Origin: Roseomonas rosulenta
GTDB lineage: Bacteria > Pseudomonadota > Alphaproteobacteria > Acetobacterales > Acetobacteraceae
DNA: 64,000 bases
Assembly (NCBI RefSeq): GCF_016106005.1
Contig: NZ_JACADR010000002.1
Location: 1-64,000 of the forward strand
Direction of reading: 5' to 3'
The notes beneath the pieces were generated by a model. The model made no database searches, was not told the origin of the DNA, and saw only the letters and a list, made by a program, of their open reading frames with translations. Below, piece after piece: positions 43,629-63,179 of the stretch. Within the stretch, counting starts at the first letter, position 1. Each line of letters begins with the position of its first letter. Made by a program: the position numbers and the translations under genes.

Positions 43629-44504
43629 TCAGGCCGGCACCGGGCCTTCCGCTTCCTCGAGATCGACGCCCACCCACAGCCCGTGCTCGCCCCCGCCCAG
43701 GATGACGCCGCGCAGCGGGCTGACATCGCCGAAATCGCGCCCCCAGGCGAGCACCACATGCTCGTCGCGCACCACGATGTCGTTGGTCGGGTCGAGGCCC
43801 ACCCAGCCATGCTCCGGCCCCAGCCAGGCCTCGACCCAGGCATGCGACTGGTCGGCGCCACGCCGCGCCGTCCCGCCCGGCGGCGGACGCGTGCGCACAT
43901 AGCCCGAGACATAGCGCGCCGGCAGGCCGAGCCCACGCAGGCCGCTCACCATCACGTGCGCATAGTCCTGGCACACCCCGACCCGGCTCTCGAGCACCTC
44001 CGCCACCTGCGTGTTCGGACCCGTCGCGCCGGGCTTGTAGGTGAAGTCGCGCCGGATGCGCGCCATCAGCTCGAGCAGCCCGGCCAGCACCGGACGGCGC
44101 GCCGGAAACGACGCCGCCGCATAGCCCCGCGCCGCCGGCACCAGCGGCGCGAGCGGGCTGCCGAAGGTGAATTCCACAGCCTCGGAGCCGCGCGCGATGT
44201 CGCGCACCACCTCCCAGGGCAGCGTGGTCGCGGGCGCAGGTGGCTCGGGGAAGCGCACCTCGACCAGAGCCTCGGCCACCACCTCGAAGCGCGCATGGGG
44301 AACGTCGATGAAGACGCGGGTCGCGAGATTGCCGAAATGGTCCGGCGCCTCGCTCACATGGGACGGCGCGGGCGTCACCTCCAGCGTCGCGCGCGCCACC
44401 TGCTGATGCGCGAGGCTCCGCGGCGTCAGCAGCAGCAGGTGCGCCGCGAGGTCCACCGGATGCGCATAGGCATAGGTGGTAACATGCCGCAGCCGATAGA
44501 TCAC
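43629..44504 (-). CDS. Transglutaminase-like cysteine protease-fold protein (bacterial N-terminal domain type)
   Basis: A 291-residue protein with an N-terminal beta domain (IYRLRHVTTYAYAHPVDLAAH, the bacterial transglutaminase-like N-region) and a core with the complete triad: Cys in GVCQDYAHVMVSGLRGLG, His in SHAWVEAWLGPEHGW and Asp in GLDPTND. No signal peptide, so it is predicted to be cytoplasmic. It starts at a GTG overlapping the stop of the ATP-grasp/alpha-E gene. Family members may cleave, ligate or cross-link peptides; its partners here favour peptide synthesis or trimming. Confidence 0.9.
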   Translation of the reverse strand: MIYRLRHVTTYAYAHPVDLAAHLLLLTPRSLAHQQVARATLEVTPAPSHVSEAPDHFGNLATRVFIDVPHARFEVVAEALVEVRFPEPPAPATTLPWEVVRDIARGSEAVEFTFGSPLAPLVPAARGYAAASFPARRPVLAGLLELMARIRRDFTYKPGATGPNTQVAEVLESRVGVCQDYAHVMVSGLRGLGLPARYVSGYVRTRPPPGGTARRGADQSHAWVEAWLGPEHGWVGLDPTNDIVVRDEHVVLAWGRDFGDVSPLRGVILGGGEHGLWVGVDLEEAEGPVPA

Positions 44505-46978
44505 GCCGCCCCCCGGAAGGCGGGCGTCGCACCTTCGATGCCGACCATCTGCGTCAGCGGCAGCAGCGCGAAATAGCGCCGCGTCACCGCATCCGACAGC
44601 GCGGCAATGCGGTTCGCCATCGCCTCCAGCCGCGGCGGCAGGCCGGCCGCCGCCACCGCCTGGTCCGGCGCGCGGATCACATCGGCCACGATCGCCTCCG
44701 CCTCCGCGAGCAGCAGCGCCGCCTCGCCCGGCAGGGCGGGGTCGTCCTCGCGCGCCACCTCCGACAGGCTGCGGCTGATCGCTTCCAGCTGGAAGGCGAG
44801 CGCGCGCGGATTGGACGGGTCCGCCAGCACCAGGTCGAGCGCCGGCGCCGGCTGCAATATGGTGAGGTAGCGGCTGCGATAGGTGATGACGCTGTCGCAC
44901 AGTTCGAGCATCAGCCGCAGCCCGCCCTCGATGCGCGCCGGCGGCTGGTCGAGCGCGAACTGCACTTCCGAGGCGATCGCCTGTGCGCGCTCCACCCGCC
45001 GCCCGAGGTCGAGGAACAGCCAGGCGCCGCCGCGCACCATGCTCTCCGCCGCAACCCCCGCCACCGCGGTGGCGAAGCGCAGCACCGAGATCATCGCGCG
45101 GCCGATCGTCTCGAGCCCGTCGCCGGCGGCCAGCATCTCGGCCCGCGCGGTGCGCAGCGTGAGCGTGAAGGTCGCATGCATGTCGGCGGTCAACCGGTCG
45201 CGCACCATGGCGGTCAACGCCGCGATGCGTTCCGCCAGCGCCGGCAGCGCGCCGCCTTCGCGCAGCGCCGCGGCGATGATCCCCGGCAGCGCCTGCGCGG
45301 CGGAGGACCCCGCGACCTCCTCCGCGCCGGTGAAGCCGGCCTGGCCCAGGCAGCGCGCAAGTGCTGCGACCTCCGCCTGCTCACGCGGCAGCACCACCCC
45401 GCGCGAGATGCGCGCCTGCGTCGCGCGCACCAGCCGTGCGGCGCGCTCCAGCCGTTCCGTATACCGCCCGAGCCAGAACAGATTGTCCGCGACGCGCGAG
45501 GGCAGCGCGCCGGGCTGCCGGCGGATCGGCAGCGGCGGCAGTTGCAGCGCCGCGGGGCCGATGATGTCGGCCCCTTCATCGGCCAGCACCCAGACATCCT
45601 TCGACAGCCCCTGCACCGGCAGCGCGCCGCCGATCGACGCCGCCTCGCCGATGCGCGCGAGGCCACCCGGCATGACGCGCCACGCCGCGCCGTCGAACAC
45701 GGCGAACATGCGCAGCATCAGCGGGCGCGGCTCCAGCCCCTCGCCAACCACGCAGGGCACGACGGAGGCGACCGGCAGGCGCGTCGCGGCATAGGCGGCG
45801 GGCCGTGCCTCCGCCCCGATGGCATTGGCCCAGGCATCGAGCGGCACGGGGGTGGGTGCGGCGCCATCGGTCGCACCGCGCACCAGCCAGCCGGGCTCGT
45901 TCGCCAGGCGCGCGCGCGCCGCGGCATCGCCGAGCCAGAGCGTCTCGACCGAGGGAAGCAGCAGCGCCTGCCCCAGCAGCCGCGGCGCCAGCGCCTCGAG
46001 GAAGCCGGCCAGCGCCGGCGCCTCGGCCAGTCCAGCCCCCGGCGCGTTCAGGATGCGCACCGCCCCCTGCCGCGCGGCATCGAGCAGCCCCGGCACGCCG
46101 GAGACGCCCGCCTGCGCGCATTCCAGCGGGTCAAGCGCCGCGCCCTCGATGCGCGAGAGCAGCACATCCACCCGCTGCAGGCCCTGCAGCGTCTTGAGGT
46201 ACAGCGCGCCGCCGCGAACGGTCAGGTCGCCGCATTCCACGAGCGCGCAGGAAAGCTCGCGCGAGAGCAGCATGTCCTCGAACCAGCGCGGATGCTGCGT
46301 GCCGCGCGTGAGCAGCGCCACCGCCGGATCGCCGCGCTCGGGCGGGGCAAGGCGCTGCAGCGCATCCTGCCACAGGTCGAAGAAGGGCCGCATGGACCGG
46401 ACCTGCGTGCCGCGGAAGGCTTCCGGCATGACGCGCGCGAGCAGCCGGCGGTTCTCCCGCGCCAGGCCCGGCCCGGCCGGCGCCGTGGTGCGGTCCGCCA
46501 GCACGCGCCAGGCGCCATCGGGGCCGCGCAGCAGGTCCGCCGCGTACAGGTGCAGCATCGGCCGTGCCGGCGCTTCGCCCGCGTGCCGGCACGCGCGCAG
46601 GAAGGCGGGATTGGCGAAGACCACCTCAGGCGGGATCGCGCCCTCGGCCAGCAGGCGCTGCGGGCCATAGAGGTCGGCCAGCAGCGCCTCCAGCAGCGCC
46701 GCGCGCTGCGCGATGCCGGCCTCGAGCTGCGCGAACTCGGCCGCCGGGAGCACCATGGGCAGCGGGTCGCAGCGCCAGGCGGCCTCGCGCTTCGAGCCCG
46801 GCAGCACGCCGGCCATGCCCTCGTCCTCGAAGGCGCGGTCGAGCCGCCGGGCGCGCTCGCCCAGCACCCCCTCGCCCATGCCGCCCAGGATGCCGAGCAG
46901 GGTGCGCCAATGCGGGCGCACGCCGCCCCTGCCATCGACCATCTCGTCGAGCGGCGGGACGGCCTCGGGCTCAGCCAT
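44501..46978 (-). CDS. Circularly permuted ATP-grasp protein fused to an alpha-E domain
   Basis: An 825-residue fusion. Residues ~1-480 form the circularly permuted ATP-grasp domain (GVLPGSKREAAWRCDPLPMVL, HLYAADLLRGPDGAWRVLADR, ENRRLLARVMPEAF, LLTRGTQHPRWFEDMLLSREL). Residues ~500-815 form the all-helical alpha-E domain (RVADNLFWLGRYTERLERAARLVRA, FLDLGRRVERAQAIAS). In many genomes these are two separate genes. ATP-grasp enzymes form amide bonds between carboxylates and amines, and this type is predicted to synthesise a peptide or tag; alpha-E is of unknown function. The ATG at 46978 overlaps the end of the DUF2126 gene by 8 bp. Confidence 0.9.
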   Translation of the reverse strand: MAEPEAVPPLDEMVDGRGGVRPHWRTLLGILGGMGEGVLGERARRLDRAFEDEGMAGVLPGSKREAAWRCDPLPMVLPAAEFAQLEAGIAQRAALLEALLADLYGPQRLLAEGAIPPEVVFANPAFLRACRHAGEAPARPMLHLYAADLLRGPDGAWRVLADRTTAPAGPGLARENRRLLARVMPEAFRGTQVRSMRPFFDLWQDALQRLAPPERGDPAVALLTRGTQHPRWFEDMLLSRELSCALVECGDLTVRGGALYLKTLQGLQRVDVLLSRIEGAALDPLECAQAGVSGVPGLLDAARQGAVRILNAPGAGLAEAPALAGFLEALAPRLLGQALLLPSVETLWLGDAAARARLANEPGWLVRGATDGAAPTPVPLDAWANAIGAEARPAAYAATRLPVASVVPCVVGEGLEPRPLMLRMFAVFDGAAWRVMPGGLARIGEAASIGGALPVQGLSKDVWVLADEGADIIGPAALQLPPLPIRRQPGALPSRVADNLFWLGRYTERLERAARLVRATQARISRGVVLPREQAEVAALARCLGQAGFTGAEEVAGSSAAQALPGIIAAALREGGALPALAERIAALTAMVRDRLTADMHATFTLTLRTARAEMLAAGDGLETIGRAMISVLRFATAVAGVAAESMVRGGAWLFLDLGRRVERAQAIASEVQFALDQPPARIEGGLRLMLELCDSVITYRSRYLTILQPAPALDLVLADPSNPRALAFQLEAISRSLSEVAREDDPALPGEAALLLAEAEAIVADVIRAPDQAVAAAGLPPRLEAMANRIAALSDAVTRRYFALLPLTQMVGIEGATPAFRGAA

Positions 46979-49900
46979 GACGTCGCAGGTCGAGGGTGAA
47001 GGGCAGTTCGAGGCCGGGCGGCGGCTCGGGCGGCGCCAGGCGGCCGGGCGTATGCCCGAAGGGCTGCACGCGGGCACGCCGGCGCGCCTCGGCCTCGTTG
47101 GCATTGACCGGATAGCGGTCGTAGCTCCGCCCGCCCGGATGCGCGACGTGATAGGTCATGCCCCCCAGGCTGCGCCCGTTCCACCGGTCGAAGACATCGA
47201 GCACCAGCGGCGTCTGCGGCCGGATGGTGGGGTGCAGCGACGAAGGCGGGTTCCACGCCTTGAAGCGGATGCCCGCCACGTATTCGCCGGCACGCTCCGT
47301 CGCGCGCAGCGGCACCGCGACGCCATTCACCGCCAGCGCGTGGCGATCCGGCACCCAGTTGGTCACGCGCGCCTGCACGCGCTCCACGCTGCTGTCGACG
47401 TAGCGGGCGGTGCCGCCGGCCACCTGTTCCTCGGCCAGCACGTGCCAGGGCTCGAGCGCGTGGCGCAGTTCGAGGCCGATGTCGCGCACGCTCGCCTCCC
47501 CGATCAGCGGGAAGCGGAAGGCCATGTGCGGGGCGAACCAGTCGGGGTCGATCGGCGCGCCCAGGTTACGCAGCTCGTCGATCGCGTCCTGAAAATCCTG
47601 CCCGCAATAGTGCGGCAGCATGAACTGGTCGTTCAGCCGCGTGCCCCAGCGCACCAGCCGGCGCTCATAGGGGCGCTCCCAGAAGGCGGCGAGGGCCGCG
47701 CGCATCAGCAGCATCTGCACCGCCGACATCTCGGCGTGCGGCGGCATCTCGAAGCCGCGGAACTCCACCAGCCCGCGCCGGCCGCCGCTCGTCGCCGGAT
47801 CGTACATCTTGTCGATGCAGAATTCCGTGCGGTGGGTGTTGCCGGTCATGTCCGCGAGGATGTTGCGGAACAGCCGGTCGGTCATCCAGGGCGGCACCTC
47901 CTGCCAGGCATGCACCTTGGAGAAGGCGATCTCGAGCTCATGGATCGCATCCATGCGCGCCTCGTCGATGCGCGGATGCTGGCTGGTCGGGCCGATGAAC
48001 AGGCCGCTGAACAGGTAGGACAGCGAGGGATGGTTGTGCCAGAAGCCGACCAGCGACTTCAGCAGGTCGGGCCGGCGCAGGAAGGGGCTTTCCGCGACCG
48101 TCTCGCCGCCCATCACGACATGGTTGCCGCCCCCGGTGCCGACATGGCGGCCATCGGTCATGAACTTCTCGGCGGCGAGGCCGACCTGGCGGGCTTCCTC
48201 GTAGAGCGCGACGGTGCGCCCGACCACCTCGTCCCAGCTGCCCGCCGGGTGGATGTTCACCTCGATCACGCCCGGATCCGGCGTGACCGAGAAATGCAGC
48301 AGCCGCGGATCCGACGGCGGCAGGTAGCCTTCCAGCACCACCTTGCGGCCCAGCTCGGCCGCCGTCGCCTCGACCGCCGCCACCATGTCGAGCCAGTCCT
48401 CCGCGGCGAAGAGCGGCGGGAAGAAGACGTGCAGCATCCCCTCCCGCGCCTCGATGGTGAGCGCCGTGCGCACCACGCCGGCGTCGGACTCGCCCACCAC
48501 CGGGATGGGCTGCGGCTGCGGGCGGAAATCCTCGATGCCCGAGGCGGTGCCCTCGCCCGCCAGCGGCGCGCGGAGCGCGCGCTGCACCAGGCTCTCGGGC
48601 ATCTGCTGCGCGCGCAGCGCCCGCTGCGCCATCAGCGCCGAATGGGGCGGCAGGTCGGCGCGCCAGGCGAAGGGGTCGGCCTCGTGCTGCTGCACGCGCG
48701 CCGCATCCTCCGGCGACATCCAGGGCAGCGCGGCGAGCGGCAGGCGCAGCCCGATCGGGCTGTCACCCGGGATGAGGAACAGGTGCTCACCGCGGAAGAA
48801 CCAGCGGCCCGACTGCCAGCGGCGCACGCCGTCCTGCATGACGCGGCGGATCGGCAGCACCGATCCGACCTCGGCCGAGAGGCCCTGGCCGAACACCTGC
48901 GCGAGGCGCTTGCGCTCCAGCGCATCGGCGAGCCTCGCGTCCTCGACCACGACATTGGCGGGCAGGCGCTGTTCCTTCCACAGGTAGTAGTGGATGTCCT
49001 CGTGCGCGCCCTGCACCAGGGCGGGGTCCACCTGCAGGCGCTCGGCCAGCAGCCGGGCGAAGCGCGCCGCGTCCGCTGCGGTGGCGGTGTCACGGTCGTC
49101 GTCGGAGGCGAGCAGCGTGGGGTCGGTCCAGACCGGCTCGCCATCGGCGCGCCAGTGGGAATGGAGCGCCCAGCGCGGCAACTGCTCGCCCGGGTAGTGC
49201 TTGCCCATGTTGGTGGTCAGCGCGGCACCCGGCGACCACAGCTTCACCAGCCGGCGCAGCAGCCGCCCGGCATAGGCGCGCTTGGTGGGTCCCAGCGCAT
49301 CGGTGTTCCATTCCGCGGCGTCGCGGTCGGAGGCGGCGACGAAGGTCGGCTCGCCACCCATGGTCAGGCGCATGCCCAGCGCCTTCAGCTTGCGGTCCAC
49401 CGCCTCGCCGGCGGCGCGGATCGCGTCCCACTGGCCGGGCGCGTAGGGCTTGGTGACGCGCGGCGTCTCGCGGATTCGGCGGACGCTCATCTCGAATCCG
49501 AATTCGGTCTCGACCTTCTCGAGCCCGCCCGAGATCGGCGCCGCGGATTGCGGCTCGGGTGTCGCCGCCAGCGGGATGTGCCCTTCGCCCGTCATCAGGC
49601 CGGAGGTCGCATCGAGGCCGATCCACCCCGCGCCGGGCAGGTAGACCTCGGCCCAGGCATGCAGGTCGGTGAAGTCGCTGGTCGGTCCCTCGGGCCCTTC
49701 GAGCGGCTTCTGGTCGGCCACCAGCTGGATCAGGTAGCCCGAGACGAAGCGGGCCGCGAAGCCGAGCCGGCGCAGCAGCTGCACCAGCAGCCAGGCGCTG
49801 TCCCGGCACGATCCCCTGCCCTGCTCGAGCGTGGTGTCGGGTGACCAGACGCCGGGCTCCATGCGCACGACATAGGCGATGCGCGACTGCACCAGGGCAT

Positions 49901-50345
49901 TCAGCGCCACCAACATGTCGACCGTGCGCTGCTCGGTGCGCGGCACTTCGGCCAGCAGGGCCTCCAGCAGCGGGCCGGAGGGGTCGATCCGGCGGAACGG
50001 TGCCAGTTCCTGCTCGAGCCCCGGATCGTAGGCGAAGGGCCAGGTCTCGGCCTCGGGCTCGAGGAAGAAGTCGAAGGGGTTGATCGTCGCCATGTCGGCA
50101 ACGAGGTCCACGGTCACGTCGAAATGCGTCACGCGCTCGGGAAACACTACGCGGGCCAGGAAATTTCCCTGCGGGTCCTGCTGCCAGTTCAGGAAGTGGG
50201 GCTTGGGTTCGACCTTCAGCGCATAGGAGAGCACAGGCGTCCGGCTGTGCGGCGCCGGTCGCAGTCGGATGGTCTGCGGGCCGAGGCTGGCAGGCCGGGC
50301 ATAGCGGTAGCTGGTGCGGTGCGTCAGCGCGACGTGGATGGACAT
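46971..50345 (-). CDS. Transglutaminase-DUF2126 fusion protein
   Basis: A very large protein of 1124 residues. The N-terminal ~290 residues are a transglutaminase-like domain: MSIHVALTHRTSYRYARPAS, catalytic Cys in GRGSCRDSAWLLVQLLRRLG, His in FTDLHAWAEVYLPGAGW and Asp in GLDATSG. The rest is DUF2126, with GGEPTFVAASDRDAAEWN, HEDIHYYLWKEQRLPANV, DPGVIEVNIHPAGSWDE and GGGNHVVMGG. Parts of DUF2126 resemble COOH-NH2 ligases of the glutamine-synthetase/GCS2 superfamily, which would make it an amide-bond former. First gene of the cluster. I chose ATG 50345, where the transglutaminase domain begins; the open frame continues upstream by chance. Confidence 0.92.
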   Translation of the reverse strand: MSIHVALTHRTSYRYARPASLGPQTIRLRPAPHSRTPVLSYALKVEPKPHFLNWQQDPQGNFLARVVFPERVTHFDVTVDLVADMATINPFDFFLEPEAETWPFAYDPGLEQELAPFRRIDPSGPLLEALLAEVPRTEQRTVDMLVALNALVQSRIAYVVRMEPGVWSPDTTLEQGRGSCRDSAWLLVQLLRRLGFAARFVSGYLIQLVADQKPLEGPEGPTSDFTDLHAWAEVYLPGAGWIGLDATSGLMTGEGHIPLAATPEPQSAAPISGGLEKVETEFGFEMSVRRIRETPRVTKPYAPGQWDAIRAAGEAVDRKLKALGMRLTMGGEPTFVAASDRDAAEWNTDALGPTKRAYAGRLLRRLVKLWSPGAALTTNMGKHYPGEQLPRWALHSHWRADGEPVWTDPTLLASDDDRDTATAADAARFARLLAERLQVDPALVQGAHEDIHYYLWKEQRLPANVVVEDARLADALERKRLAQVFGQGLSAEVGSVLPIRRVMQDGVRRWQSGRWFFRGEHLFLIPGDSPIGLRLPLAALPWMSPEDAARVQQHEADPFAWRADLPPHSALMAQRALRAQQMPESLVQRALRAPLAGEGTASGIEDFRPQPQPIPVVGESDAGVVRTALTIEAREGMLHVFFPPLFAAEDWLDMVAAVEATAAELGRKVVLEGYLPPSDPRLLHFSVTPDPGVIEVNIHPAGSWDEVVGRTVALYEEARQVGLAAEKFMTDGRHVGTGGGNHVVMGGETVAESPFLRRPDLLKSLVGFWHNHPSLSYLFSGLFIGPTSQHPRIDEARMDAIHELEIAFSKVHAWQEVPPWMTDRLFRNILADMTGNTHRTEFCIDKMYDPATSGGRRGLVEFRGFEMPPHAEMSAVQMLLMRAALAAFWERPYERRLVRWGTRLNDQFMLPHYCGQDFQDAIDELRNLGAPIDPDWFAPHMAFRFPLIGEASVRDIGLELRHALEPWHVLAEEQVAGGTARYVDSSVERVQARVTNWVPDRHALAVNGVAVPLRATERAGEYVAGIRFKAWNPPSSLHPTIRPQTPLVLDVFDRWNGRSLGGMTYHVAHPGGRSYDRYPVNANEAEARRRARVQPFGHTPGRLAPPEPPPGLELPFTLDLRRHG

Positions 50346-50432
50346 GTCCGGGCCTGGATCGGTTGGGTCCGTTTCACACGGATGCGACAGGCGATGCAAT
50401 CCGCGGTCCAACCGAGCGCCCGTCGTCCGGTC

Positions 50433-50446
50433 TTGCGCTGCGTCAA
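50433..50446. promoter_or_regulatory. Weak FNR/CRP-family-like dyad
   Basis: TTGCG-CTGC-GTCAA lies 56 bp before the ferric-reductase-like gene in the 156-bp divergent gap. It keeps the outer TTG...CAA of FNR/NnrR-type sites and the GTCAA half seen at 27593-27597, matching TTGAT-N4-ATCAA at 7 of 10 positions. Confidence 0.25.
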
Positions 50447-50501
50447 GACTTCGGCCGCGGCGATCGCCTAGGCAGGCGGGACAGGATCGAAAGGACCAGG
50501 C

Positions 50502-51851
50502 ATGCCGGCTGCCCTGCTTCTGGCCGCATATGCGGTGCTGGTCATCCTGCCCGTGGCCCTCGGCTGGGCGCGCGTCGGGCCGGCGCGGCCCTGGATGGAC
50601 GAGCTGTCCTCCGCCCTCGCCATGGCGGGCTTCGCCGCGCTGCTGCTGGAATTCCTGCTCTCGGGCCGCTTTAGTGCCATCAGCGGGGGCATCGGCATCG
50701 ACCGGACCATGCGCTGGCACCAGGCCTTCGCCCGGGTGCTGACGGTGGCGCTGCTGGCCCACCCCTTTCTGTACGACTACGCCGCCTTCCGCTTCGCCCC
50801 GCCGATCCCGGCGCAGGACCTGGCGGCGGCGGACCCGGCGCGCGCGGCGGTGCTCGGCCTCACCGGCGGGTCCGCCGCGACGGGGTGGATCGCCTGGCTG
50901 ATGCTGTTCTGCCTCACCGGCCTCGCGATCTTCCGACGCGCCACGCCCTATACCTACGAGGGCTGGCGGGTGATGCACGGGCTGACGGCGGCTGCGGTTG
51001 CCCTCACCGGGCTGCTCCATGCGCTGGAGGCCGGGCGCTACAGCGCCGACGCTCCGCTCGCCGCCTATTGGGGCGTGCTGACGGCGGTGGCGCTGTTCAC
51101 GCTGGTCGAGGTCTACATCCTCCGCCCGCGCCGGCTCGCCCGCCGCCCCTGGCGCATCGCCGCCGTCACGCCCGCGGCCGAGCGCAGCTGGGAGGTGACG
51201 CTGACCCCCGCCGGCCATGACGGGCTTGCCTTCACGCCCGGGCAATTCGCCTGGCTGCGCCTCGCCTGCTCGCCGCATGCGGTGCGGGAGCATCCCTTCT
51301 CGATCGCCTCCGCCCCCGGCGAGCCGGAAGGCCGGCTGCGCTTCCTGATCAAGGAGGCCGGCGACTTCACCAGCACCATCGGCAGCCTGCCCGTGGGCGC
51401 CCCGGCCTATGTCGACGGCCCGCACGGCGTGCTGGTCACCGAGGGGCGCGCCGCGCCCGGCATCGCCATGCTGGCGGGCGGGATCGGCCTCGCGCCGATG
51501 CTCTCCATGCTGCGCGCCGCGCGGACGGCGCGGGACAGCCGGCCGATGCTGCTGCTCTACGGCAACCGCCATGCCGGGCAGATCCTGGCCCGCGAGGAAC
51601 TGGCGGAGCTGGCGCGCGCCCTGCCGCTCGAGGTGGTGCATGTGCTGAGCGAACCGCCCCCCGGCTGGGCGGGTGCCACGGGGATGCTCTCGCGCGACCT
51701 GGTCCGCGCGCGCTGTGCCGAAGCCGCCAGGGCCGGCTGGATCTTCGTCCTGTGCGGCCCGCCCGCCATGCTGCGCGAGGCGCGGGTGGGCCTCGCCGCG
51801 CTCGGCGTCCCGGGCTCGCGCATCCTCGAGGAACGCTTCGTCTACGATTGA
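50502..51851 (+). CDS. Ferric reductase-like transmembrane flavocytochrome (FAD/NAD(P)H oxidoreductase)
   Basis: A 449-residue fusion of a six-helix heme b membrane domain with a ferredoxin-NADP reductase module. Candidate bis-His heme ligands are in MRWHQAF, LLAHPFLYDY, RVMHGLTAAA and TGLLHALEAG. The cytosolic half begins near residue 215 (RPWRIAAVTPAAERSWEVTL), binds FAD through EHPFSIASAPG, and NAD(P)H through LAGGIGLAPMLSML and FVLCGPPAMLRE. It should move electrons from NAD(P)H across the inner membrane, to ferric iron or a periplasmic acceptor. It stands alone, 54 bp before the aminoacylase gene. Confidence 0.9.
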   Translation: MPAALLLAAYAVLVILPVALGWARVGPARPWMDELSSALAMAGFAALLLEFLLSGRFSAISGGIGIDRTMRWHQAFARVLTVALLAHPFLYDYAAFRFAPPIPAQDLAAADPARAAVLGLTGGSAATGWIAWLMLFCLTGLAIFRRATPYTYEGWRVMHGLTAAAVALTGLLHALEAGRYSADAPLAAYWGVLTAVALFTLVEVYILRPRRLARRPWRIAAVTPAAERSWEVTLTPAGHDGLAFTPGQFAWLRLACSPHAVREHPFSIASAPGEPEGRLRFLIKEAGDFTSTIGSLPVGAPAYVDGPHGVLVTEGRAAPGIAMLAGGIGLAPMLSMLRAARTARDSRPMLLLYGNRHAGQILAREELAELARALPLEVVHVLSEPPPGWAGATGMLSRDLVRARCAEAARAGWIFVLCGPPAMLREARVGLAALGVPGSRILEERFVYD

Positions 51852-51905: not shown

Positions 51906-53624
51906 ATGGCCGATCTGGTGATCCGCGGCGGGACGGTGGTGGACGGCACGGGAAGCGCGCCCATCGAGGCCGATATTGCCATCGAGGGCGGCCGCATCAC
52001 GCAGGTCGGCCGCGTGGCCGAGCGCGGGCGCGAGGAGATCGACGCGCGCGGCCACCTGGTCACCCCCGGCTTCGTCGATATCCACACCCATTACGACGGC
52101 CAGGCGGTGTGGGATTCGCACCTCGCCCCTTCGGCCTGGCATGGCGTGACCACGGCGGTGATGGGCAATTGCGGCGTCGGCTTCGCCCCCTGCCGCGCGG
52201 CCGACCGCGACAAGCTGATCGAACTTATGGAGGGCGTGGAGGACATCCCCGGCCCCATCCTGCACGAGGGCCTCGACTGGCGCTGGGAGAGCTTCCCCGA
52301 ATACCTCGATGCGCTGGACGCCAGGCCGCGCGACATCGACATCTGCGCCCTGCTGCCGCATGGCGCGCTGCGCGTGCATGTGATGGGCGAACGCGGCCTG
52401 GCGCTCGAGAACGCCAACCAGGCCGATATCGCACGGATGCGTGAGATCACCGCGGAAGCCGTGCGCGCCGGCGCGTTTGGCGTCTCCACCTCGCGCACCA
52501 TCAGCCACAAGACCCTGAAGGGCGACCCCACGCCCACGCTTCGTGCCCAGGAGGAAGAACTCCACGGCCTGGCGCTCGGCCTGCGCGACGGCGGCGGCGG
52601 GCTGCTGGAACTGGTGTCGGACTGGAACACGCCCGACCCCGCCACCGAATTCGCCATCGTGCGCCGCGTGGTCGAGGCGACCGGGCAGCCGGTGGTCTTC
52701 TCGCTCACCGCGCGCCACGACCGGACCGAGGCATGGAAGGAACTGCTCGCCCTGTCCGACGATGCGGCGGCGCGCGGCCTGCCGATCCGACCGGTGTTCC
52801 CGCCGCGGCCGATCGGCATCCTGCTCGGGCTGAACGGCAGCCAGAATCCCTTCGCCGGCTGCGCGTCGTACAAGGAGATCGCGCACCTGCCCGCGCCGGC
52901 GCGCGCCGCGGCCATGCGCGACCCGGCGCTGCGCGCGCGCATCCTCTCGGAGGACCGCATCAGCGGATCGACCTTCCCGCTCATCACGCGCCTCGGCTTC
53001 GAGCGCATGTTCCCCTTCGGCGATCCGCCGGACTACGCCCCGCCGCGCGACGCCTCGATCGCCGCCATGGCCGCGCGCGAGGGCCGGACCGCCGAGGAGG
53101 TCGCCTATGACCTGCTGGTCGCCGATGACGGCGCGGGCTTCATCTTCGCCCCGCTCACCAACTTCGCCGACTACACGCTCGCGGCCAGCGCCGAGTGCCT
53201 GCGCCACCCCAATGCCATCGCCGGCCTGTCGGATGGCGGGGCGCATGTGGGCTTCATCTCGGACGGGTCCTTCCCGACCTTCCTGCTCGCCTACTGGGCG
53301 CGCGACGGGAAGGAGGCCGTATTCCCGGTGCAGGAGATCGTCCGCCGCCTGACCTCCGACACCGCGCGCGCGGCGGGGCTGCACGACCGCGGCGTGCTGC
53401 GCCCGGGGCTGCGCGCCGATGTGAACGTGATCGACCTGACGGCGCTGGCGCTCGAGGCGCCGCGGATGGTCGCCGACCTGCCCGCCGGCGGGCGGCGGCT
53501 GCTGCAGCGTGCGCGCGGCTATGCCGCGACGGTGGTGGCCGGCGCCGTCACCTATCGCGACGGCGTGGCCACCGGTGCCCTGCCCGGCCGCCTGGTGCGC
53601 GCCGGACGGCACGCCGCGCTGTGA
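51906..53624 (+). CDS. N-acyl-D-amino-acid deacylase-type amidohydrolase
   Basis: A 572-residue amidohydrolase of the D-aminoacylase/dihydroorotase-like group. His60 and His62 lie in DIHTHYDGQAVWD, and WHGVTTAVMGNCGVGFAPCR is the diagnostic GNCG segment of D-aminoacylases. A later ISDGSF region with GLSDGGAHVG supplies the metal-binding Asp. Products of this reaction are free D-amino acids, which the D-amino-acid dehydrogenase encoded 5 kb away could oxidise. The family also contains N-acyl-urea and hydantoin-like hydrolases, so the exact amide is uncertain. Confidence 0.85.
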   Translation: MADLVIRGGTVVDGTGSAPIEADIAIEGGRITQVGRVAERGREEIDARGHLVTPGFVDIHTHYDGQAVWDSHLAPSAWHGVTTAVMGNCGVGFAPCRAADRDKLIELMEGVEDIPGPILHEGLDWRWESFPEYLDALDARPRDIDICALLPHGALRVHVMGERGLALENANQADIARMREITAEAVRAGAFGVSTSRTISHKTLKGDPTPTLRAQEEELHGLALGLRDGGGGLLELVSDWNTPDPATEFAIVRRVVEATGQPVVFSLTARHDRTEAWKELLALSDDAAARGLPIRPVFPPRPIGILLGLNGSQNPFAGCASYKEIAHLPAPARAAAMRDPALRARILSEDRISGSTFPLITRLGFERMFPFGDPPDYAPPRDASIAAMAAREGRTAEEVAYDLLVADDGAGFIFAPLTNFADYTLAASAECLRHPNAIAGLSDGGAHVGFISDGSFPTFLLAYWARDGKEAVFPVQEIVRRLTSDTARAAGLHDRGVLRPGLRADVNVIDLTALALEAPRMVADLPAGGRRLLQRARGYAATVVAGAVTYRDGVATGALPGRLVRAGRHAAL

Positions 53625-53708: not shown

Positions 53709-53936
53709 ATGCCCGGCCCGCGGCTGCACATCCTTGTCGGCCTCGTCATCGCCTGCGCCGTCACCGCCGGCGCGGCGCGCGCCTCGCTGGTGCTGCCCGC
53801 GCGGGACCGCTGCCAGCTCGCCGGCCCCTACGCGAGCCTGAGCGACGCGATCGAGGCGGCGCAGGCCGCGCGCGAGCGCGGCGCCAACCCCACCACCTTC
53901 CGCACCGAGGACGGCTACTTCGTGCGTGCCTGCTGA
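53709..53936 (+). CDS. Small secreted protein of unknown function
   Basis: A 75-residue protein with a strong ribosome site (GCAGGAGG) 7 bp before the ATG. Residues 1-25 are a Sec-type signal peptide (ILVGLVIACAVTAGAARA). The mature part is ~50 residues with two cysteines (RCQLAGPYASLSDA ... FVRAC), which could form a disulfide in the periplasm. The GPYASLSDAIEAAQAARERGA segment recalls one SPOR-like repeat (G-x-F/Y ... A ... A ... G) but is too short to assign. Its last 22 bp overlap the convergent dehydrogenase gene. Confidence 0.65.
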   Translation: MPGPRLHILVGLVIACAVTAGAARASLVLPARDRCQLAGPYASLSDAIEAAQAARERGANPTTFRTEDGYFVRAC

Positions 53937-54853
53937 CGCGCTTCCAGCAGCCGCACCAGCGCGGCGTCGCGCCGTGCCGCCAGCTCCGCGGTGGTGGCGC
54001 CGCCGGTGCCCTCGGCGACACCTTCCACCAGCATCCGCTGCACCGCCGCATCCACCTTCGGATCGCCGAGATCCATCCACCAGGATTCAAGCGCCGGCAG
54101 CAGGTGGTGCAGGAAGTGGTCGATGCCGCCCTCCCCACCGGCCAGGTGGAAAGTGGTGTGCGGGCCCATCAGCGCCCAGCGCAGCCCGGGGCCCTCGCTG
54201 ATCGCGGCATCCACGTCGGCGACGCTCGCCACACCTTCCGCGACCAGGTGCACCGCCTCCCGCCACAGCGCCGCCTGCAGGCGGTTCGCGAGGTGGCCCG
54301 GCACCTCCTTGCGGATCTCGATCGGGTGCTTGCCGATGGCGCGGTAGAATTCCATCGCCGCGGCCACCGCCTCGGGGCTGGCCTTGGCGCCGCCCACCAC
54401 CTCGACCAGCGGGATCAGGTGCGGCGGGTTGAAGGGATGGCCGATCACCACGCGTTCGGGATGCGCGCAGCGTTCCGACAGCCGGCTCGCGAGCAGTCCC
54501 GAGGTCGATGACGCGATCACCACGTCGGGCGGCACGGCAGCATCGATCCGCGCCAGCAGGTCCTGCTTGATGTCGAGCCGCTCCGGCGCGCTCTCCTGCA
54601 CGAAGTCGCAGCCCGCGCAGGCTGCCGCGGGATCAGCGTCGAAGGTCCAGGCATCCGGATCGGCATCCGCCTTGCCGCCGAGCCGCATCAGGGTCGGCCA
54701 GGCGCCGGCGATCATCCGCCGCAGCAGGTCGGGCGCACCCGGCGAGGGATCGCTCGCGCTGACGCTCAGCCCGCGGCTGAGGAAATACGCTGCCCAGGAG
54801 GCGCCGATGGTGCCCGCGCCGATCACCGCGACGCGCTTGATCTCGGTCCGCAT
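53915..54853 (-). CDS. L-carnitine dehydrogenase-like/3-hydroxyacyl-CoA dehydrogenase family protein
   Basis: A 312-residue NAD-dependent dehydrogenase. The Rossmann loop is VAVIGAGTIGASWAAYFLSRG (residues ~8-28); QESAPERLDIKQDLLARIDA, SSTSGLLASRL and the catalytic-His region GHPFNPPHLIPLVEVVGG follow. KEVPGHLANRLQAALWREAVHL and GPGLRWALMGPHTTFHLAGG strongly recall carnitine 3-dehydrogenases rather than beta-oxidation enzymes. The other dehydrogenase of this superfamily at 9.3 kb is clearly different. No thioesterase or betainyl-CoA cleavage gene is adjacent, so carnitine as substrate is a good guess only. Confidence 0.85.
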   Translation of the reverse strand: MRTEIKRVAVIGAGTIGASWAAYFLSRGLSVSASDPSPGAPDLLRRMIAGAWPTLMRLGGKADADPDAWTFDADPAAACAGCDFVQESAPERLDIKQDLLARIDAAVPPDVVIASSTSGLLASRLSERCAHPERVVIGHPFNPPHLIPLVEVVGGAKASPEAVAAAMEFYRAIGKHPIEIRKEVPGHLANRLQAALWREAVHLVAEGVASVADVDAAISEGPGLRWALMGPHTTFHLAGGEGGIDHFLHHLLPALESWWMDLGDPKVDAAVQRMLVEGVAEGTGGATTAELAARRDAALVRLLEARQQARTK

Positions 54854-54921: not shown

Positions 54922-54944
54922 CCGCGCCGGCAGGAGGAACGCCC

Positions 54945-55787
54945 ATGCAGGATCTCGTCGCGCGGATGAACGCCATCTGCGACGCGCAGCCCTTCGACAC
55001 GACCTGGTACGTGAAGGACCTCGCGACCGGCTGGGAGGCCGATCGCGGCGGCGACGTCGTCACGCCCTCCGCCAGCACGCGCAAGACCTCGATCCTGATG
55101 CACGCGCTCTCGAAGGTGCATGAGGGCAGGCTGCGGCTCGACGAGCCCTGCACGATCGAGGCGCGGCTGCAGGAAGGTGTCGACAGCGGCACCTACCAGT
55201 ACATGACGCCGGGCTGCGTCATTCCGCTGCGCGACGCCTTCGTGAACATGATCATCACCTCGGACAATGTCTGCACGCAGATCGTCCTGGAACGGCTGGA
55301 TCGCGACGAGCTCAACGCCTGGTGCCGGGGCATCGGCATGACCGGCACGACGCATCGCGTGAACTTCCCCCCGCCCGGCCTGGCCTGGGACCACCAGATC
55401 GACGCGGTGGCGAGCACCACGGCGCGCGACCAGGGGCTGCTGCTCGACCGCATGGTGAAGGGCGCGACCGACGCCGCGGAACCGGCCGCGATCGGTGCCA
55501 CGCCGGAGCTCTGCAGGCTCGGCCTCGACATCCTGTCCTGGCAGCGGCTGCGCAACCTGATCCCATCCCTCCTGCCGGCCAAGACGAAGGTCGCGAACAA
55601 GACCGGGCGCGGGCCGCGCGGGCGGATGGATGCGGGCGTGGTGTATCGCGGCGAGGTGCCGCGCTTCATCATCTCGGTCTATTGCGACCGCGTGCCGGAC
55701 ACGCTGCCCGACGGGCTGCCGGGCTATACCGCCGCCTACGCCACCGCCGGGCGGCTGACCCGGCTTTGCTGGGACACGATGAACTGA
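54945..55787 (+). CDS. Serine hydrolase, class A beta-lactamase/PBP fold, lacking the general-base Glu
   Basis: A 280-residue protein with the three active-site motifs of the beta-lactamase/penicillin-recognising fold: S44-T-R-K47 (SxxK), S106-D-N108 (SDN) and K219-T-G221 (KTG). The E-x-x-L-N loop that gives class A lactamases their deacylating Glu should lie about 35 residues after SDN; there I see NFPPPGLAWDHQ with no Glu. There is no signal peptide, unlike secreted lactamases, so it is probably a cytoplasmic amide or ester hydrolase. AGGAGG lies 7 bp before the ATG, which rules out the longer open frame. It is followed after 1 bp by the hydratase gene. Confidence 0.85.
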   Translation: MQDLVARMNAICDAQPFDTTWYVKDLATGWEADRGGDVVTPSASTRKTSILMHALSKVHEGRLRLDEPCTIEARLQEGVDSGTYQYMTPGCVIPLRDAFVNMIITSDNVCTQIVLERLDRDELNAWCRGIGMTGTTHRVNFPPPGLAWDHQIDAVASTTARDQGLLLDRMVKGATDAAEPAAIGATPELCRLGLDILSWQRLRNLIPSLLPAKTKVANKTGRGPRGRMDAGVVYRGEVPRFIISVYCDRVPDTLPDGLPGYTAAYATAGRLTRLCWDTMN

Positions 55788-55788: not shown

Positions 55789-56658
55789 ATGACCGACGCG
55801 GAATTCGAGGCGGCGATCGCCGCCCTGCAGGACTGGGTGGGGCGCGAGCGGATCGTCGAGGACGAGATCGGCCTGTCCTCCGCGCGCCGCATCGCCGGCA
55901 TGCTCGACATCGACCCGGCCTCGCTGAAGCAGGGCGACGCGCTGCCGCCGCACTGGTTCACCATGTTCTTCCCCGACATCGCGAAGCAGTCCGACATCGG
56001 TCCCGACGGCCACCCCAACAAGGGCGTGTTCCTGCCGCCGATCCCGCTGCCGCGGCGCATGGGCGCGGGCCGGCGCGTGACGATCAACGAAGCCCTGCGC
56101 ATCGGCACGCCGGCCATCAAGCGCGCCATCGTGGCACAGGTGCTGCCCAAGATCGGCCGCACCGGTCGCATGGCGATCCTGACCATGCGCCACGTCATCG
56201 AATGCGAGGGCCGCACCGTCGCGGTGGACGAGTTCGACGCCATGTACCGGGAGGCGCCGCCGCCCGGCCAGCCGAGCCCGCAGACGCCGCCCAACCCGGC
56301 GCCGACGAACGGCATCTATGCCGACCGGGTGCTGCTCTCCTCGGCGCTGGTGTTCCGCTATTCCTCGGTGACCTGGAACGCGCATCGCATCCACTACGAC
56401 GCGGATTATGCGCGCAGCGAGGAAGGCTATCCCGCGACCGTGCAGAATGGCGGGCTGACCATGCAATTGCTGCTCGATGCCGCGCTGAAGCGTGCGCCGG
56501 GGCGGCTCGCCGGGTTCACCGCGCGGCTCGCGCGCCCGCTCTGGGTGGGTGATACGGTCACGCTGTGCGGTGCGGCGCCGGTCGATGGGAAGATGGCCTG
56601 CTGGGCGACCGACAAGGACGGCAACCTCTGTGCCACGATGGAGCTGGCTTTCGCATGA
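55789..56658 (+). CDS. MaoC/HTD2-like acyl-CoA hydratase (mesaconyl- or itaconyl-CoA hydratase type)
   Basis: A 289-residue hot-dog-fold hydratase. The N-terminal half is an FAS1-like dehydratase domain (LPPHWFTMFFPD...GVFLPPIPLPRRMGAG). The C-terminal half holds FRYSSVTWNAHRIHYDADYAR and EGYPATVQNG, the signature shared by mesaconyl-C4-CoA hydratase and itaconyl-CoA hydratase. It would add water to a branched unsaturated dicarboxylyl-CoA to give citramalyl-CoA or a relative. The stop overlaps the CitE-like gene by 4 bp, which makes the next step, C-C cleavage, very likely the partner reaction. Confidence 0.82.
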   Translation: MTDAEFEAAIAALQDWVGRERIVEDEIGLSSARRIAGMLDIDPASLKQGDALPPHWFTMFFPDIAKQSDIGPDGHPNKGVFLPPIPLPRRMGAGRRVTINEALRIGTPAIKRAIVAQVLPKIGRTGRMAILTMRHVIECEGRTVAVDEFDAMYREAPPPGQPSPQTPPNPAPTNGIYADRVLLSSALVFRYSSVTWNAHRIHYDADYARSEEGYPATVQNGGLTMQLLLDAALKRAPGRLAGFTARLARPLWVGDTVTLCGAAPVDGKMACWATDKDGNLCATMELAFA

Positions 56659-57524
56659 CGCGCCCTGCCCCCGCCACCTGGCGGTCGCTGATGTTCGTGC
56701 CCGCCAGCGGCGAGAAATTCGTCGCCAAGGCGCATACCCGCGGCGCGGATGTGGTGATTCTCGACCTTGAGGATTCCATCCCGCCCGGCGGCAAGCAGGC
56801 GGCGCGGGATGCGCTGCCGGCCGCTGCGGCAAGCGTCGGCCAGGCGGGGGCGGAGGTGGCGGTGCGCATCAACCGCGCGCTGGAGCTTGCCATCCCCGAC
56901 ATCGCCGCCGCCGTGATGCCGGCGGTCGGCACGCTGATGCTGCCCAAGGTGATGGGGCCGGAACACATCCGCCTGCTGTCGGAGGTGGTGGCGGCACGCG
57001 AGGCCGCGCTTGGCATGGCGCCGGGCCATACGCGCTTCGTCGCGGTGGTGGAGACGCCCGATGCGCTGCCCTTGCTGGGTGCCATCGCCAGCGCCGACCC
57101 GCGCGTGGTGGCGCTGGGCATCGGTGCGGAGGATCTCTCGACGGAGCTGGAGGCGGTGCCCGGCGCCGACCTGCTCTACCATTTCGGGATGATGGTGGTG
57201 GCGGCGGCGCGCGCGGCGCGCGTGCAGCCCATGGGATCGGTCGGGCCCTTCGCGGATTTCTCGGATCTCGAGGGCTATCGCGCCTCGCTGAAGCGGTCCC
57301 GCGCGCTGGGCTTCGCCTGCCAGGCCTGCATCCATCCCGCACAGGTGGCGGTGATCAACGAGGAATACGGGCCCTCGCCCGCCGAGGTGGATCGCGCGCG
57401 CCGGCTGATCGCCGCCTTCGACGCCGCGATCGCGCAGGGCCAGGGTGCGGTGGCCTTCGAGGGCCAGATGATCGACCTGCCGGTGGTCGAGCGCGCGCGC
57501 AGGCTGCTGGCACGGGCGCGCTGA
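56655..57524 (+). CDS. CitE-like acyl-CoA lyase (HpcH/HpaI family; citramalyl-/malyl-CoA lyase type)
   Basis: A 289-residue TIM-barrel lyase beginning MTRPAPATWRSLMFVPASGEKF. DVVILDLEDSIPPGGKQAAR has the conserved Asp-Leu-Glu-Asp, VAVRIN the Arg that contacts the substrate, and the metal-binding Glu/Asp pair lies in VETPDAL and GAEDLSTEL. It should split a beta-hydroxy-dicarboxylyl-CoA such as citramalyl-CoA (to acetyl-CoA and pyruvate) or malyl-CoA. It is translationally coupled to the hydratase. No citrate-lyase alpha or gamma subunit and no CoA-transferase is nearby. Confidence 0.85.
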   Translation: MTRPAPATWRSLMFVPASGEKFVAKAHTRGADVVILDLEDSIPPGGKQAARDALPAAAASVGQAGAEVAVRINRALELAIPDIAAAVMPAVGTLMLPKVMGPEHIRLLSEVVAAREAALGMAPGHTRFVAVVETPDALPLLGAIASADPRVVALGIGAEDLSTELEAVPGADLLYHFGMMVVAAARAARVQPMGSVGPFADFSDLEGYRASLKRSRALGFACQACIHPAQVAVINEEYGPSPAEVDRARRLIAAFDAAIAQGQGAVAFEGQMIDLPVVERARRLLARAR

Positions 57525-61003: not shown

Positions 61004-62143
61004 ATGGACCAGGCCTTCATCCCCGCCGTGTTCATGCGCGGCGGATCCTCCAAGGGGGTGTTCTTCCACGCGAAGGACCTGCCGCGCGACCGCGGGAAGC
61101 AGGATGCGATCTTCCTGTCGGTGCTGGGCAGCCCCGATCCCTACGGGCGGCAGCTCGACGGTATGGGCGGGGGGATCTCGTCGCTGTCGAAGGCCGTGAT
61201 TGTCGGGCCGCCGACGCATGCGGACGCCGATGTGGACTACACCTTCGCGCAGGTCGCGGTGGATCGCCCGCTGGTGGACTGGTCGTCCAACTGCGGCAAC
61301 CTTTCCTCCGCCATCGGCCCCTTCGCGGTGGATGAGGGCCTCGTGCGCGCCTCCGACGGCGAAGCGCTGGTGCGCATCCACCAGGTCAACACGCAGCGCA
61401 TCATCCATGCGCGCTTCCCGGTGCGCGGCGGGCGCGCGGCGGTGGCCGGCGACTTCGCCATGGCCGGCGTGTCGGGCACCGGCGCGCGCATCCGGCTCGA
61501 CTTCCTCGCCCCCGGCGGTGGCGCGACCGGATCGTTGCTGCCCACCGGCGCCGCGCTCGACACGCTGGACCATGACGGGCGCCGCTACAGGGCCACCATG
61601 GTCGATGCCGCCAATGCCTGCGTCTTCCTCGATGCGCACGAGCTCGGCCTGACCGGCACCGAGAGCCCCGAGGCGATCGAGGCCAGTCCCGCAACGATGG
61701 CGCTGCTCGATGCGCTGCGGCGGATCGCGGCGGTGCGCAAGGGCCTCTGCGCCACGCCCGAGGCGGCGCCGCTCGCCATCCCGAAGGTCGCGGTCGTGGC
61801 ACCCGCCGCGCCCTATCGCGCGCTCGACGGCGCGGAGCATGCCGCCGGCACGCACGACATCGCGGTGCGCATGATCTCGATGGAACGTGCCCATCGCGCC
61901 GTGCCGCTCACCGGCGGCATGGCGCTCGGCGTCGCCTGCCGCATCGCCGGTTCGCTGCCGCAATCGATGGCCGGCCTCATCGCGGGCGACGAGGTGCGCG
62001 TTGCAAATCCCTCCGGCATCCTCTCGGTCGGCGCCGAGGTTTCGCGCCGCGAAACCGGCTGGTTCGCCGACAGTGCCGTGGTGTTCCGCACCGCGCGGCG
62101 CCTCATGCAAGGTGCGGTCGCGGTGCCGATGCGCCTGCTTTGA
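61004..62143 (+). CDS. PrpF-family isomerase (2-methylaconitate isomerase/4-oxalomesaconate tautomerase-like)
   Basis: A 379-residue diaminopimelate-epimerase-fold isomerase. PAVFMRGGSSKGVFFHAKDLP is the PrpF beginning, WSSNCGNLSSAIGPFA carries the conserved Asn-Cys-Gly, and MVDAANACVFLDA and RMISMERAHRAVPLTGGM follow. PrpF acts in the 2-methylcitrate cycle with AcnD, but no prpBCD/acnD is here. The same family includes GalD, which tautomerises 4-oxalomesaconate in gallate breakdown; the downstream LigI-like hydrolase makes that reading attractive. The binding-protein gene starts 58 bp downstream. Confidence 0.88.
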   Translation: MDQAFIPAVFMRGGSSKGVFFHAKDLPRDRGKQDAIFLSVLGSPDPYGRQLDGMGGGISSLSKAVIVGPPTHADADVDYTFAQVAVDRPLVDWSSNCGNLSSAIGPFAVDEGLVRASDGEALVRIHQVNTQRIIHARFPVRGGRAAVAGDFAMAGVSGTGARIRLDFLAPGGGATGSLLPTGAALDTLDHDGRRYRATMVDAANACVFLDAHELGLTGTESPEAIEASPATMALLDALRRIAAVRKGLCATPEAAPLAIPKVAVVAPAAPYRALDGAEHAAGTHDIAVRMISMERAHRAVPLTGGMALGVACRIAGSLPQSMAGLIAGDEVRVANPSGILSVGAEVSRRETGWFADSAVVFRTARRLMQGAVAVPMRLL

Positions 62144-62201
62144 GGGCGCGGCGCGACGTGCGATAGGTGGCGCGTCCAGGAAGCACACGGAGAACCATCC
62201 G

Positions 62202-63179
62202 ATGGTCAGCCGCCGGCATGCGCTTGCCGCCGCCACCCTGCTTGCCGCGCCCGCGGCGCGGGCGCAGGCCACCTGGCCCGACCGGCCGATCCGCGTGGTA
62301 GTGCCCTTCGCAGCCGGCGGCAATGCCGACACCATCGCCCGCATCCTCCAGCCGCGCCTGCAGGAGAAGCTCGGCCAGCCGGTGGTGGTCGAGAACCGGC
62401 CCGGCGCCGGCGGCGCGGTCGGCGCGGCGGAGGTCGCGCGGGTTCGCCCGGATGGCTACACCCTGCTGATCGGATCGAACGGCCCGCTCAGCGTGAACCC
62501 CGCGGTGCAGGCCCGCCTGCCCTACGATGCCGAGCGCGACTTCGCGCCCGTCGCCATGGCCATGCAGGTGCCGCATTGCCTGATGGTGCAGCAGGGCGCG
62601 CCCTATCGCAGCCTGGCCGATGTCGTCGCCGCATCCCGCGCGCAGCCCGATGCGCTGGGGGCGGGCACCGCCGGGGTCGCGAGCGCCACGCATCTCTCGC
62701 TGGAGGCCTTCAAGCTCGCCTCCGGCGCGCGCATCCTGCACGTGCCCTATCGCGGCGGCGGCGCCGCGCTGCCGGATTTCATCGCCGGCAACATCCCGCT
62801 GCTGTTTACCGAATTCTCGACCGCGCTGCCGCTGCACCGCGACAGCAAGGGGCGCATCCTGGCGGTGGCCTCGACCACACGGCTGGCAGCGGTGCCGGAG
62901 GTGCCGACCATGATCGAGCAGGGTATCGCCGGCTTCACCGCCGCCTCCTATGTCGGCCTCATCGCGACGGCCGGCACGCCGTCGGAGGCGCTGCGCAAGC
63001 TGGGCGAGGCGATGACGGCCATCGTCGCCGAACCGGATTTCCAGCGTCGCATGGAAGCAATGGGCGGCGAGACGGCGTCCGGCGCGCTCGCCACCCCCGA
63101 GGGCTTCGCCGCCTTCATCCGCGACGACCTGCGCCGGTCGCGCGAGGTGGTGCGCTCCGCGGGGATCACCGCGCAATGA
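62202..63179 (+). CDS. Tripartite tricarboxylate transporter substrate-binding protein (Bug/TctC family)
   Basis: Periplasmic binding protein of 325 residues. MVSRRHALAAATLLAAPAARAQ is a signal peptide with a twin-Arg-like start; WPDRPIRVVVPFAAGGNADTIAR is the classical TctC opening, and VVENRPGAGGAVGAAEVAR and TAGVASATHLSLEAF follow. No TctA/TctB membrane subunits are adjacent, as is common for the many orphan Bug proteins in this kind of bacterium. Context suggests a di- or tricarboxylate from aromatic catabolism as ligand. GGAGAA precedes the ATG at 62202. Its stop overlaps the next gene by 4 bp. Confidence 0.93.
   Translation: MVSRRHALAAATLLAAPAARAQATWPDRPIRVVVPFAAGGNADTIARILQPRLQEKLGQPVVVENRPGAGGAVGAAEVARVRPDGYTLLIGSNGPLSVNPAVQARLPYDAERDFAPVAMAMQVPHCLMVQQGAPYRSLADVVAASRAQPDALGAGTAGVASATHLSLEAFKLASGARILHVPYRGGGAALPDFIAGNIPLLFTEFSTALPLHRDSKGRILAVASTTRLAAVPEVPTMIEQGIAGFTAASYVGLIATAGTPSEALRKLGEAMTAIVAEPDFQRRMEAMGGETASGALATPEGFAAFIRDDLRRSREVVRSAGITAQ

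Follow-up and report, generated by a model that had tools for sequence, protein, structure and literature searches.

What does a protein with the fold of a class A beta-lactamase do if it is predicted to stay in the cytoplasm, has no counterpart of the deacylating Glu166 and is encoded one base away from enzymes of CoA-ester metabolism? The question is raised by a gene of Roseomonas rosulenta that lies in the first 64,000 nucleotides of contig NZ_JACADR010000002.1, the stretch of DNA analysed here and referred to below as the window.

The gene and the location of its product

54945..55787 (+): class-A-fold serine hydrolase of 280 residues, predicted cytoplasmic, PF13354 (open reading frame, Pfam, AlphaFold model)
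54932..54937 (+): Shine-Dalgarno sequence AGGAGG ahead of the hydrolase ATG (sequence)

The product, hereafter the hydrolase, matches the Pfam family PF13354 (Beta-lactamase2) with 160 bits (E = 6.9e-47, cut-off 22); at E 0.01 it does not match any further Pfam family. The gene is under purifying selection, as judged from dN/dS values of 0.12-0.44 against 11 relatives. A phage origin was rejected, since none of 50,697 phage records matched at E 1e-3. The genome has no further class-A-like protein, its sole other PF13354 match being an S11 D-Ala-D-Ala carboxypeptidase (PF00768, 185 bits).

The hydrolase is very probably cytoplasmic, since its start is supported by the Shine-Dalgarno sequence and its N-terminus does not resemble a signal peptide and runs straight into the fold. 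No part of the N-terminus is strongly hydrophobic (the maximum 15-residue Kyte-Doolittle mean within the first 30 residues is 0.33), and in the AlphaFold model residues 2-13 and 18-25 already form a helix and a strand of the fold. The same ATG is preceded by GGAG in the window and in all 17 inspected loci out of the 28 that belong to the same clade (hereafter, the Neoroseomonas clade). The N-termini of orthologues, inspected by eye, show no obvious signal peptide; the highest N-terminal Kyte-Doolittle mean among them is 1.39 (locus L098). Export from an upstream start was considered as well. The frame is open to 54384, but a gene starting there would overlap the divergent dehydrogenase gene (53915-54853), and it is 54945 that the Shine-Dalgarno sequence precedes. 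The original prediction of an open reading frame without a signal peptide thus appears to be correct.

Conservation of the active site

55074..55085 (+): SxxK motif S44-T-R-K47, with Arg46 as an invariant family signature (S44, R46 and K47 in 83/83 orthologues)
55260..55268 (+): SDN motif S106-D107-N108 (83/83)
55353..55430 (+): omega-loop region, residues 137-162, without Glu166 (conserved H137, P142, D149, H150 and D162)
55599..55607 (+): KTG motif K219-T220-G221 (alignment; KGG in 18/83 orthologues)

Residue counts refer to 83 aligned orthologues, 28 of them from the Neoroseomonas clade (including the window) and 55 from elsewhere; L059, which has an internal stop, was excluded from both the trees and the counts. 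The three motifs had been reported as intact, and so they are: S44, R46, K47, S106, D107, N108, K219 and G221 are invariant in 83/83 sequences, a set that covers all catalytic residues except Glu166. The KGG variant of the third motif is carried by all 11 sequences of the rhizobial clade, all 6 of the Burkholderiales clade and L085 (L033-L035, L084, L085, L089-L091, L093, L098, L104, L105, L108-L111, L113 and L114). This substitution may alter the recognition of a carboxylate.

The other early claim about the active site, that the omega loop lacks the deacylating Glu, is borne out by every alignment. The equivalent of Ambler position 166 is P143 according to phmmer (against both PBP-A and the ancestral lactamase 4c6y) and to the profile alignment with a PBP-A mutant, and F141 according to MAFFT and to the profile alignment with wild-type PBP-A; the F141-P142 pairing parallels Glu166-Pro167 of lactamases and Leu158-Pro of PBP-A. 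Position 141 is hydrophobic in 83/83 orthologues (F, I, V, L or M), and at position 143 they carry P (75 sequences), R (5) or A (3). Neither position has Glu, so the residue is not Glu whichever aligner is used. A substitute Glu elsewhere in the loop was sought and none is conserved: across residues 137-162 Glu is present only at positions 149 (1/83), 153 (42/83, the highest count) and 154 (8/83). Conserved in this region are H137, P142 and D162 (83/83 each), H150 (81/83) and D149 (79/83), among which H137, D149 and H150 are the visible candidates that might replace Glu166 as the base. Under the thresholds chosen, the clade is separated from the other orthologues at seven positions (53, 120, 141, 157, 170, 240 and 268). 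All of them are outside the SxxK, SDN and KTG motifs, with 141 and 157 falling within the omega-loop region.

Fold and closest relatives

The AlphaFold2 model, built from 51 sequences, has a pLDDT of 95.4 and a pTM of 0.93 and displays a complete class-A fold. In a Foldseek search the ten best rows were all PBP-A chains, the first with E = 8e-18. VIA-align placed at the top a Chitinophaga structure (6v4w, Z 35.1), LRA-5 (34.2), PBP-A (34.2) and a Sphaerobacter structure (4ewf, 34.1), several of these being tied, and most of the remaining rows were class A lactamases with Z of 31.6-33.5. The VIA-align superposition with PBP-A has an rmsd of 2.0 over 253 aligned residues at 26% identity. Searching the PDB with the family profile also returned PBP-A first (91.6 bits), with 77.5 bits for 4ewf and 58 bits for the best class A lactamase. 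By sequence, then, the hydrolase is closest to PBP-A, and it is not a class A beta-lactamase: it scores 51.6 bits with the NCBIfam model of that class, below the cut-off of 200. In a tree that includes five solved chains the hydrolase family is recovered as one clade (support 100/100). On its side of this tree, which joins long branches and contains only one PBP-A sequence, are PBP-A, 4ewf and a set of paralogues. The paralogues are a distant PF13354-like group from the same bacterial family (L020 and L022-L025) and have no obvious signal peptide. They keep S-x-x-K and KTG, the motif lysine not being preceded by Arg.

PBP-A of Thermosynechococcus elongatus (Tll2115; 2j7v/2j8y) is an exported protein working outside the cytoplasm. 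The hydrolase is similar to it in the fold, the SxxK, SDN and KTG motifs and the lack of Glu166, at whose position PBP-A has Leu158, as seen from the titles of PDB entries for its mutants. However, the hydrolase family differs from PBP-A in being predicted cytoplasmic, in occurring in several non-cyanobacterial phyla, in the Arg that occupies the second x of SxxK and in its frequent link to importers. Sections of PMC11189452 describe PBP-A as a DD-carboxypeptidase and DD-endopeptidase that acts on peptidoglycan and as a cyanobacteria-only protein. In other words, an enzyme of this kind can be a competent peptidase without Glu166.

LRA-5 (8eo5), a class A beta-lactamase precursor from a soil metagenome, has the class A fold, SDN and KTG in common with the hydrolase, but the two are only 20% identical and LRA-5 has been studied as a lactamase precursor. 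According to sections of PMC12777564, Val166 replaces Glu in LRA-5, its activity on beta-lactams is biologically insignificant, which is attributed to the missing Glu, and it is at most 33% identical to enzymes such as PER. Since both PBP-A and LRA-5 are without Glu166, its absence from a class-A fold is already known; what is new here is the cytoplasmic, importer-linked form. Sphaerobacter thermophilus 4ewf, titled 'beta-lactamase', likewise has the class A fold and no Glu at the aligned position. The class A lactamases proper (TEM, PER and the ancestral GNCA and PNCA) have the fold and the three motifs in common with the hydrolase at 14-23% identity, but they do have Glu166, and enzymes of this class are exported to the periplasm or outside. 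A weak match over SxxK-SDN to ORF12 of clavulanic acid biosynthesis (2xep) is not significant (E = 0.045). The ORF12 chain is longer than the hydrolase (458 residues) and is reportedly a two-domain protein, in which a lactamase-like domain functions within a metabolic pathway.

Distribution

A full-length copy with at least 51% identity is found in 17 of 200 genomes of the same bacterial family, including that of the window. In a collection of genomes from 84,980 species, 212 relatives were confirmed among 251 pattern matches. The best 80 of these 212, on which all host assignments rest, come from Acetobacteraceae and relatives, Rhizobiales, Burkholderiales, Rokubacteria, Methylomirabilota, Chloroflexota, one deltaproteobacterium and Tectomicrobia, that is, from at least five phyla as labelled, many of the hosts being metagenome bins. 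Many rhizobial copies reside on large plasmids.

The CoA-ester operon of the Neoroseomonas clade

51906..53624 (+): Amidohydro_3 protein, upstream on the same strand (profile matches)
53915..54853 (-): 3-hydroxyacyl-CoA or carnitine dehydrogenase-like gene, divergent neighbour (profile matches; adjoins the hydrolase gene in 28/28 clade loci)
55789..56658 (+): hydratase, homologue of itaconyl-CoA hydratase (match to 8khg, E = 7e-43)
56655..57524 (+): HpcH/HpaI (CitE/RipC-type) CoA-ester lyase (citE model, 165 bits, cut-off 443; RipC model, 151 bits, cut-off 375)
61004..62143 (+): PrpF-family isomerase (profile matches)
62199..63179 (+): TctC-type binding protein (profile match)
Contig 65718-69075, past the window end: CoA-transferase, TctC and CoA-transferase set (searches of the contig)

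The tight spacing noted at the outset is confirmed. The TGA of the hydrolase gene ends at 55787 and the ATG of the hydratase gene starts at 55789, leaving a gap of one base, and the start of the lyase gene overlaps the end of the hydratase gene by four bases. The best solved match of the lyase is malyl-CoA/beta-methylmalyl-CoA lyase, covering its C-terminal part. The hydratase has no Pfam match at E 0.01 despite the clear match to 8khg, which reflects a gap in the Pfam library. Two CaiB-family CoA-transferases are encoded ~10 and ~12 kb downstream of the hydrolase; their best models include succinate-glutarate and mesaconate types, every one scoring below its cut-off. In six of eight further clade genomes CoA-transferases are located on the same strand, 9-20 kb from the hydrolase, and in the other two (G160 and G222) no nearby CoA-transferase is found among the matches listed. 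CoA-transferase genes are common in clade genomes, with 18-25 matches in each.

Judging by homology, the closest known systems are the itaconate degradation operons (Rip; Ict-Ich-Ccl), in which homologues of both the hydratase and the lyase are found. The window differs from the Rip operon in that its lyase is well under the RipC equivalog cut-off (151 versus 375 bits) and its CoA-transferases are ~10 kb away. We know of no itaconate degradation operon with a class-A-fold gene. The gene content supports the presence of a dicarboxyl-CoA route in this region, but it points neither to a particular acid nor to a particular action of the hydrolase.

The order hydrolase-hydratase-lyase is kept in 28/28 loci of the Neoroseomonas clade. 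By contrast, the hydratase-lyase pair is beside the hydrolase in 0/55 orthologous loci outside the clade, some of which have short flanks. The link to CoA-ester metabolism, as originally proposed, is thus real but lineage-specific. By homology its partners are CoA-ester enzymes, but as a general explanation of the family the proposal is not supported.

Importer genes outside the clade

Outside the clade a different neighbour is frequent. A binding protein of the SBP_bac_5 family or a Dpp permease is encoded within 8 kb of the hydrolase in 40/55 loci and within 1 kb in 30/55, whereas in the Neoroseomonas clade SBP_bac_5 is found within 8 kb in 2/28 loci and within 1 kb in 0/28. The family identity of representative importer proteins was established with Pfam, and the same loci supplied the proteins for the importer profiles. 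In the remaining 15 of the 55 loci no importer is encoded within 8 kb; the flank on one side is shorter than 6 kb in 8 of these 15.

Some genomes hold dozens of such binding proteins, and for this reason each genome's own count was used as the baseline. In 20 of the 55 loci, from genomes hand-chosen to span lineages and not fully independent, SBP_bac_5 was observed within 8 kb in 11 cases where 2.48 would be expected (P = 3e-6) and, at the tighter limit of 1 kb, in 7 where the expectation is 0.66 (P = 1.6e-6). These expectations lean high, as they used first-look candidate counts, which equal or exceed match counts. An importer link by mere chance is ruled out for the family by this comparison, with the clade of the window itself falling outside the result. 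The clearest cases are two Burkholderiales, which have three and four SBP_bac_5 proteins in genomes of ~6.0 and ~5.8 Mb; in each genome one of these proteins is encoded in the gene cluster of the hydrolase, ~5 kb away. On the tree, from which 12 near-identical clade rows were omitted, the importer context appears in most main branches and the hydratase context is limited to one tip clade. At least nine changes are needed to account for the importer context, so it is not the result of one simple inheritance.

The arrangement of the importer loci varies. In Rhizobium the genes are arranged as LysR, permease, permease, fused ATPase, hydrolase, binding protein and M20 metallopeptidase. Four Burkholderiales loci (L084, L089, L091 and L093) have, after the importer genes, the hydrolase and then a PGA_cap protein. 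The latter was scanned in L089 (10567-12267), the other three loci having a protein of the same cluster; in NCBIfam it comes closest to the model of the MslH lasso-peptide C-terminal Trp epimerase, scoring 241 bits where the cut-off is 700. S15 and M20 peptidases are encoded near the hydrolase in a deltaproteobacterial locus (L112), and an N-formylglutamate amidohydrolase-like protein in L098. Some other non-clade neighbours are unrelated (malate synthase, DnaJ, CorA and trypsin-like proteins). Besides peptides, importers of the SBP_bac_5 type transport nickel, opines, glutathione and further compounds that are not peptides, and neither of the two binding proteins that were scanned reached the cut-off of any specific model.

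The window has a complete Dpp-type importer of its own (34184-42720, minus strand), with two ATPases, a binding protein and permeases, accompanied by two amidohydrolase genes. Located ~14 kb upstream of the hydrolase, it is weak evidence for a link, because the genome contains 54 SBP_bac_5 matches. Between the two, at 43629-51000 on the minus strand, there are transglutaminase-like open reading frames, which we take to be a transglutaminase, circularly permuted ATP-grasp and DUF2126 set. Among the open-access papers searched, we found nothing on the hydrolase family or on class-A-fold genes in peptide-importer or itaconate operons.

Discussion

Based on these observations, we propose that the hydrolase is an acyl-serine amidase or peptidase resembling PBP-A, which works in the cytoplasm on small amides, most of them imported, and which in the Neoroseomonas clade was recruited into a dicarboxyl-CoA catabolic operon. 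We would give this reading roughly an even chance. The frequent presence of peptide-type importers beside its relatives, along with peptidase- and amidase-like genes at several of these loci, suggests that the substrates are probably small amides or peptides taken up by the cell and not drugs. As the motifs and the fold imply, Ser44, helped by Lys47, Ser106 and Lys219, would attack a small amide, probably a peptide bond, to give an acyl-enzyme. The latter would then be resolved without a Glu166-bound water, as in DD-peptidases of the PBP-A type. In many lineages the substrate is probably delivered by the adjacent Dpp/Opp-type ABC importer. In the Neoroseomonas clade, where the gene is a constant member of an operon whose hydratase and lyase are homologous to enzymes of itaconate-type catabolism, the hydrolase may, speculatively, split a conjugate to free either a C5-dicarboxylic acid or the amine joined to it, ahead of a CoA-transferase. 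One could go further and suggest, with considerable doubt, that the family is an importer-coupled intracellular branch of penicillin-recognising enzymes, present in at least five phyla, which would cleave imported small peptides protected by D-amino acids or in some other way, or amides, by acyl-serine catalysis with deacylation that does not involve Glu166 (possibly relying on H137 or on D149-H150), and whose Neoroseomonas members might have been enlisted to supply a C5-dicarboxyl-CoA pathway.

The original prediction of a non-antibiotic amidase, esterase or transacylase is reasonable, because the hydrolase scores below the class A cut-off and lacks Glu166; as to the esterase activity or lactone opening that it mentions, nothing that we found favours an ester or lactone over an amide. 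If the substrate were a lactone, lactam or ester, the hydrolase would free a C5-dicarboxylic acid of the itaconate, mesaconate or citramalate type, which would pass to a CoA-transferase and, after hydration, be cleaved to acetyl-CoA and pyruvate. The operon invariably kept in the clade, the homology of its hydratase to itaconyl-CoA hydratase and the downstream CoA-transferases, recurring in most of the further clade genomes, are all consistent with such a sequence of events. Nonetheless, we consider it unlikely, since the same enzyme with the same active-site residues is present in 55 loci without a hydratase or lyase nearby, and the clade-specific positions lie outside the three motifs. The sequence gives no sign of a preference for esters or lactones. 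Still less probable, in our opinion, is a transacylase that hands the acyl group to an amine or alcohol instead of water. It would account for the loss of Glu; the general base is missing from its usual position, and acyl transfer is established for the related transpeptidases among penicillin-binding proteins. However, many of the neighbours that were scanned look catabolic, and PBP-A, equally devoid of Glu166, is hydrolytic as both carboxypeptidase and endopeptidase in sections of PMC11189452, so that the loss of this residue does not require transacylation.

Two further readings were considered. The complete class A fold with SxxK, SDN and KTG could be taken to mean an intracellular beta-lactam-binding protein or a slow beta-lactamase. 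Beta-lactams act in the periplasm, though, and no export signal is seen in the hydrolase. Together with the missing Glu166, the score of 51.6 against 200 bits and the biologically insignificant activity of LRA-5, another protein without Glu166 (sections of PMC12777564), this makes a role in binding or degrading antibiotics very unlikely. The position of the gene next to transporters, with LysR regulators close by in rhizobia, might also fit a non-catalytic ligand sensor or a scaffold of the importer operon; we find this hardly credible, considering that the catalytic residues are invariant across phyla in 83/83 sequences.

The assignment has a practical side. Some proteins of the family are labelled 'class A beta-lactamase-related serine hydrolase' in databases, and resistance counts for environmental genomes could be too high as a result. 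The neighbouring importers provide a way of getting at the substrate. If the proposed reading is true, there is a large intracellular group, sister to the class A beta-lactamases, whose role is metabolic and not antibiotic, and this group would be well suited to studying how water gains access to the acyl-enzyme without Glu166 and how lactamases and peptidases are related.
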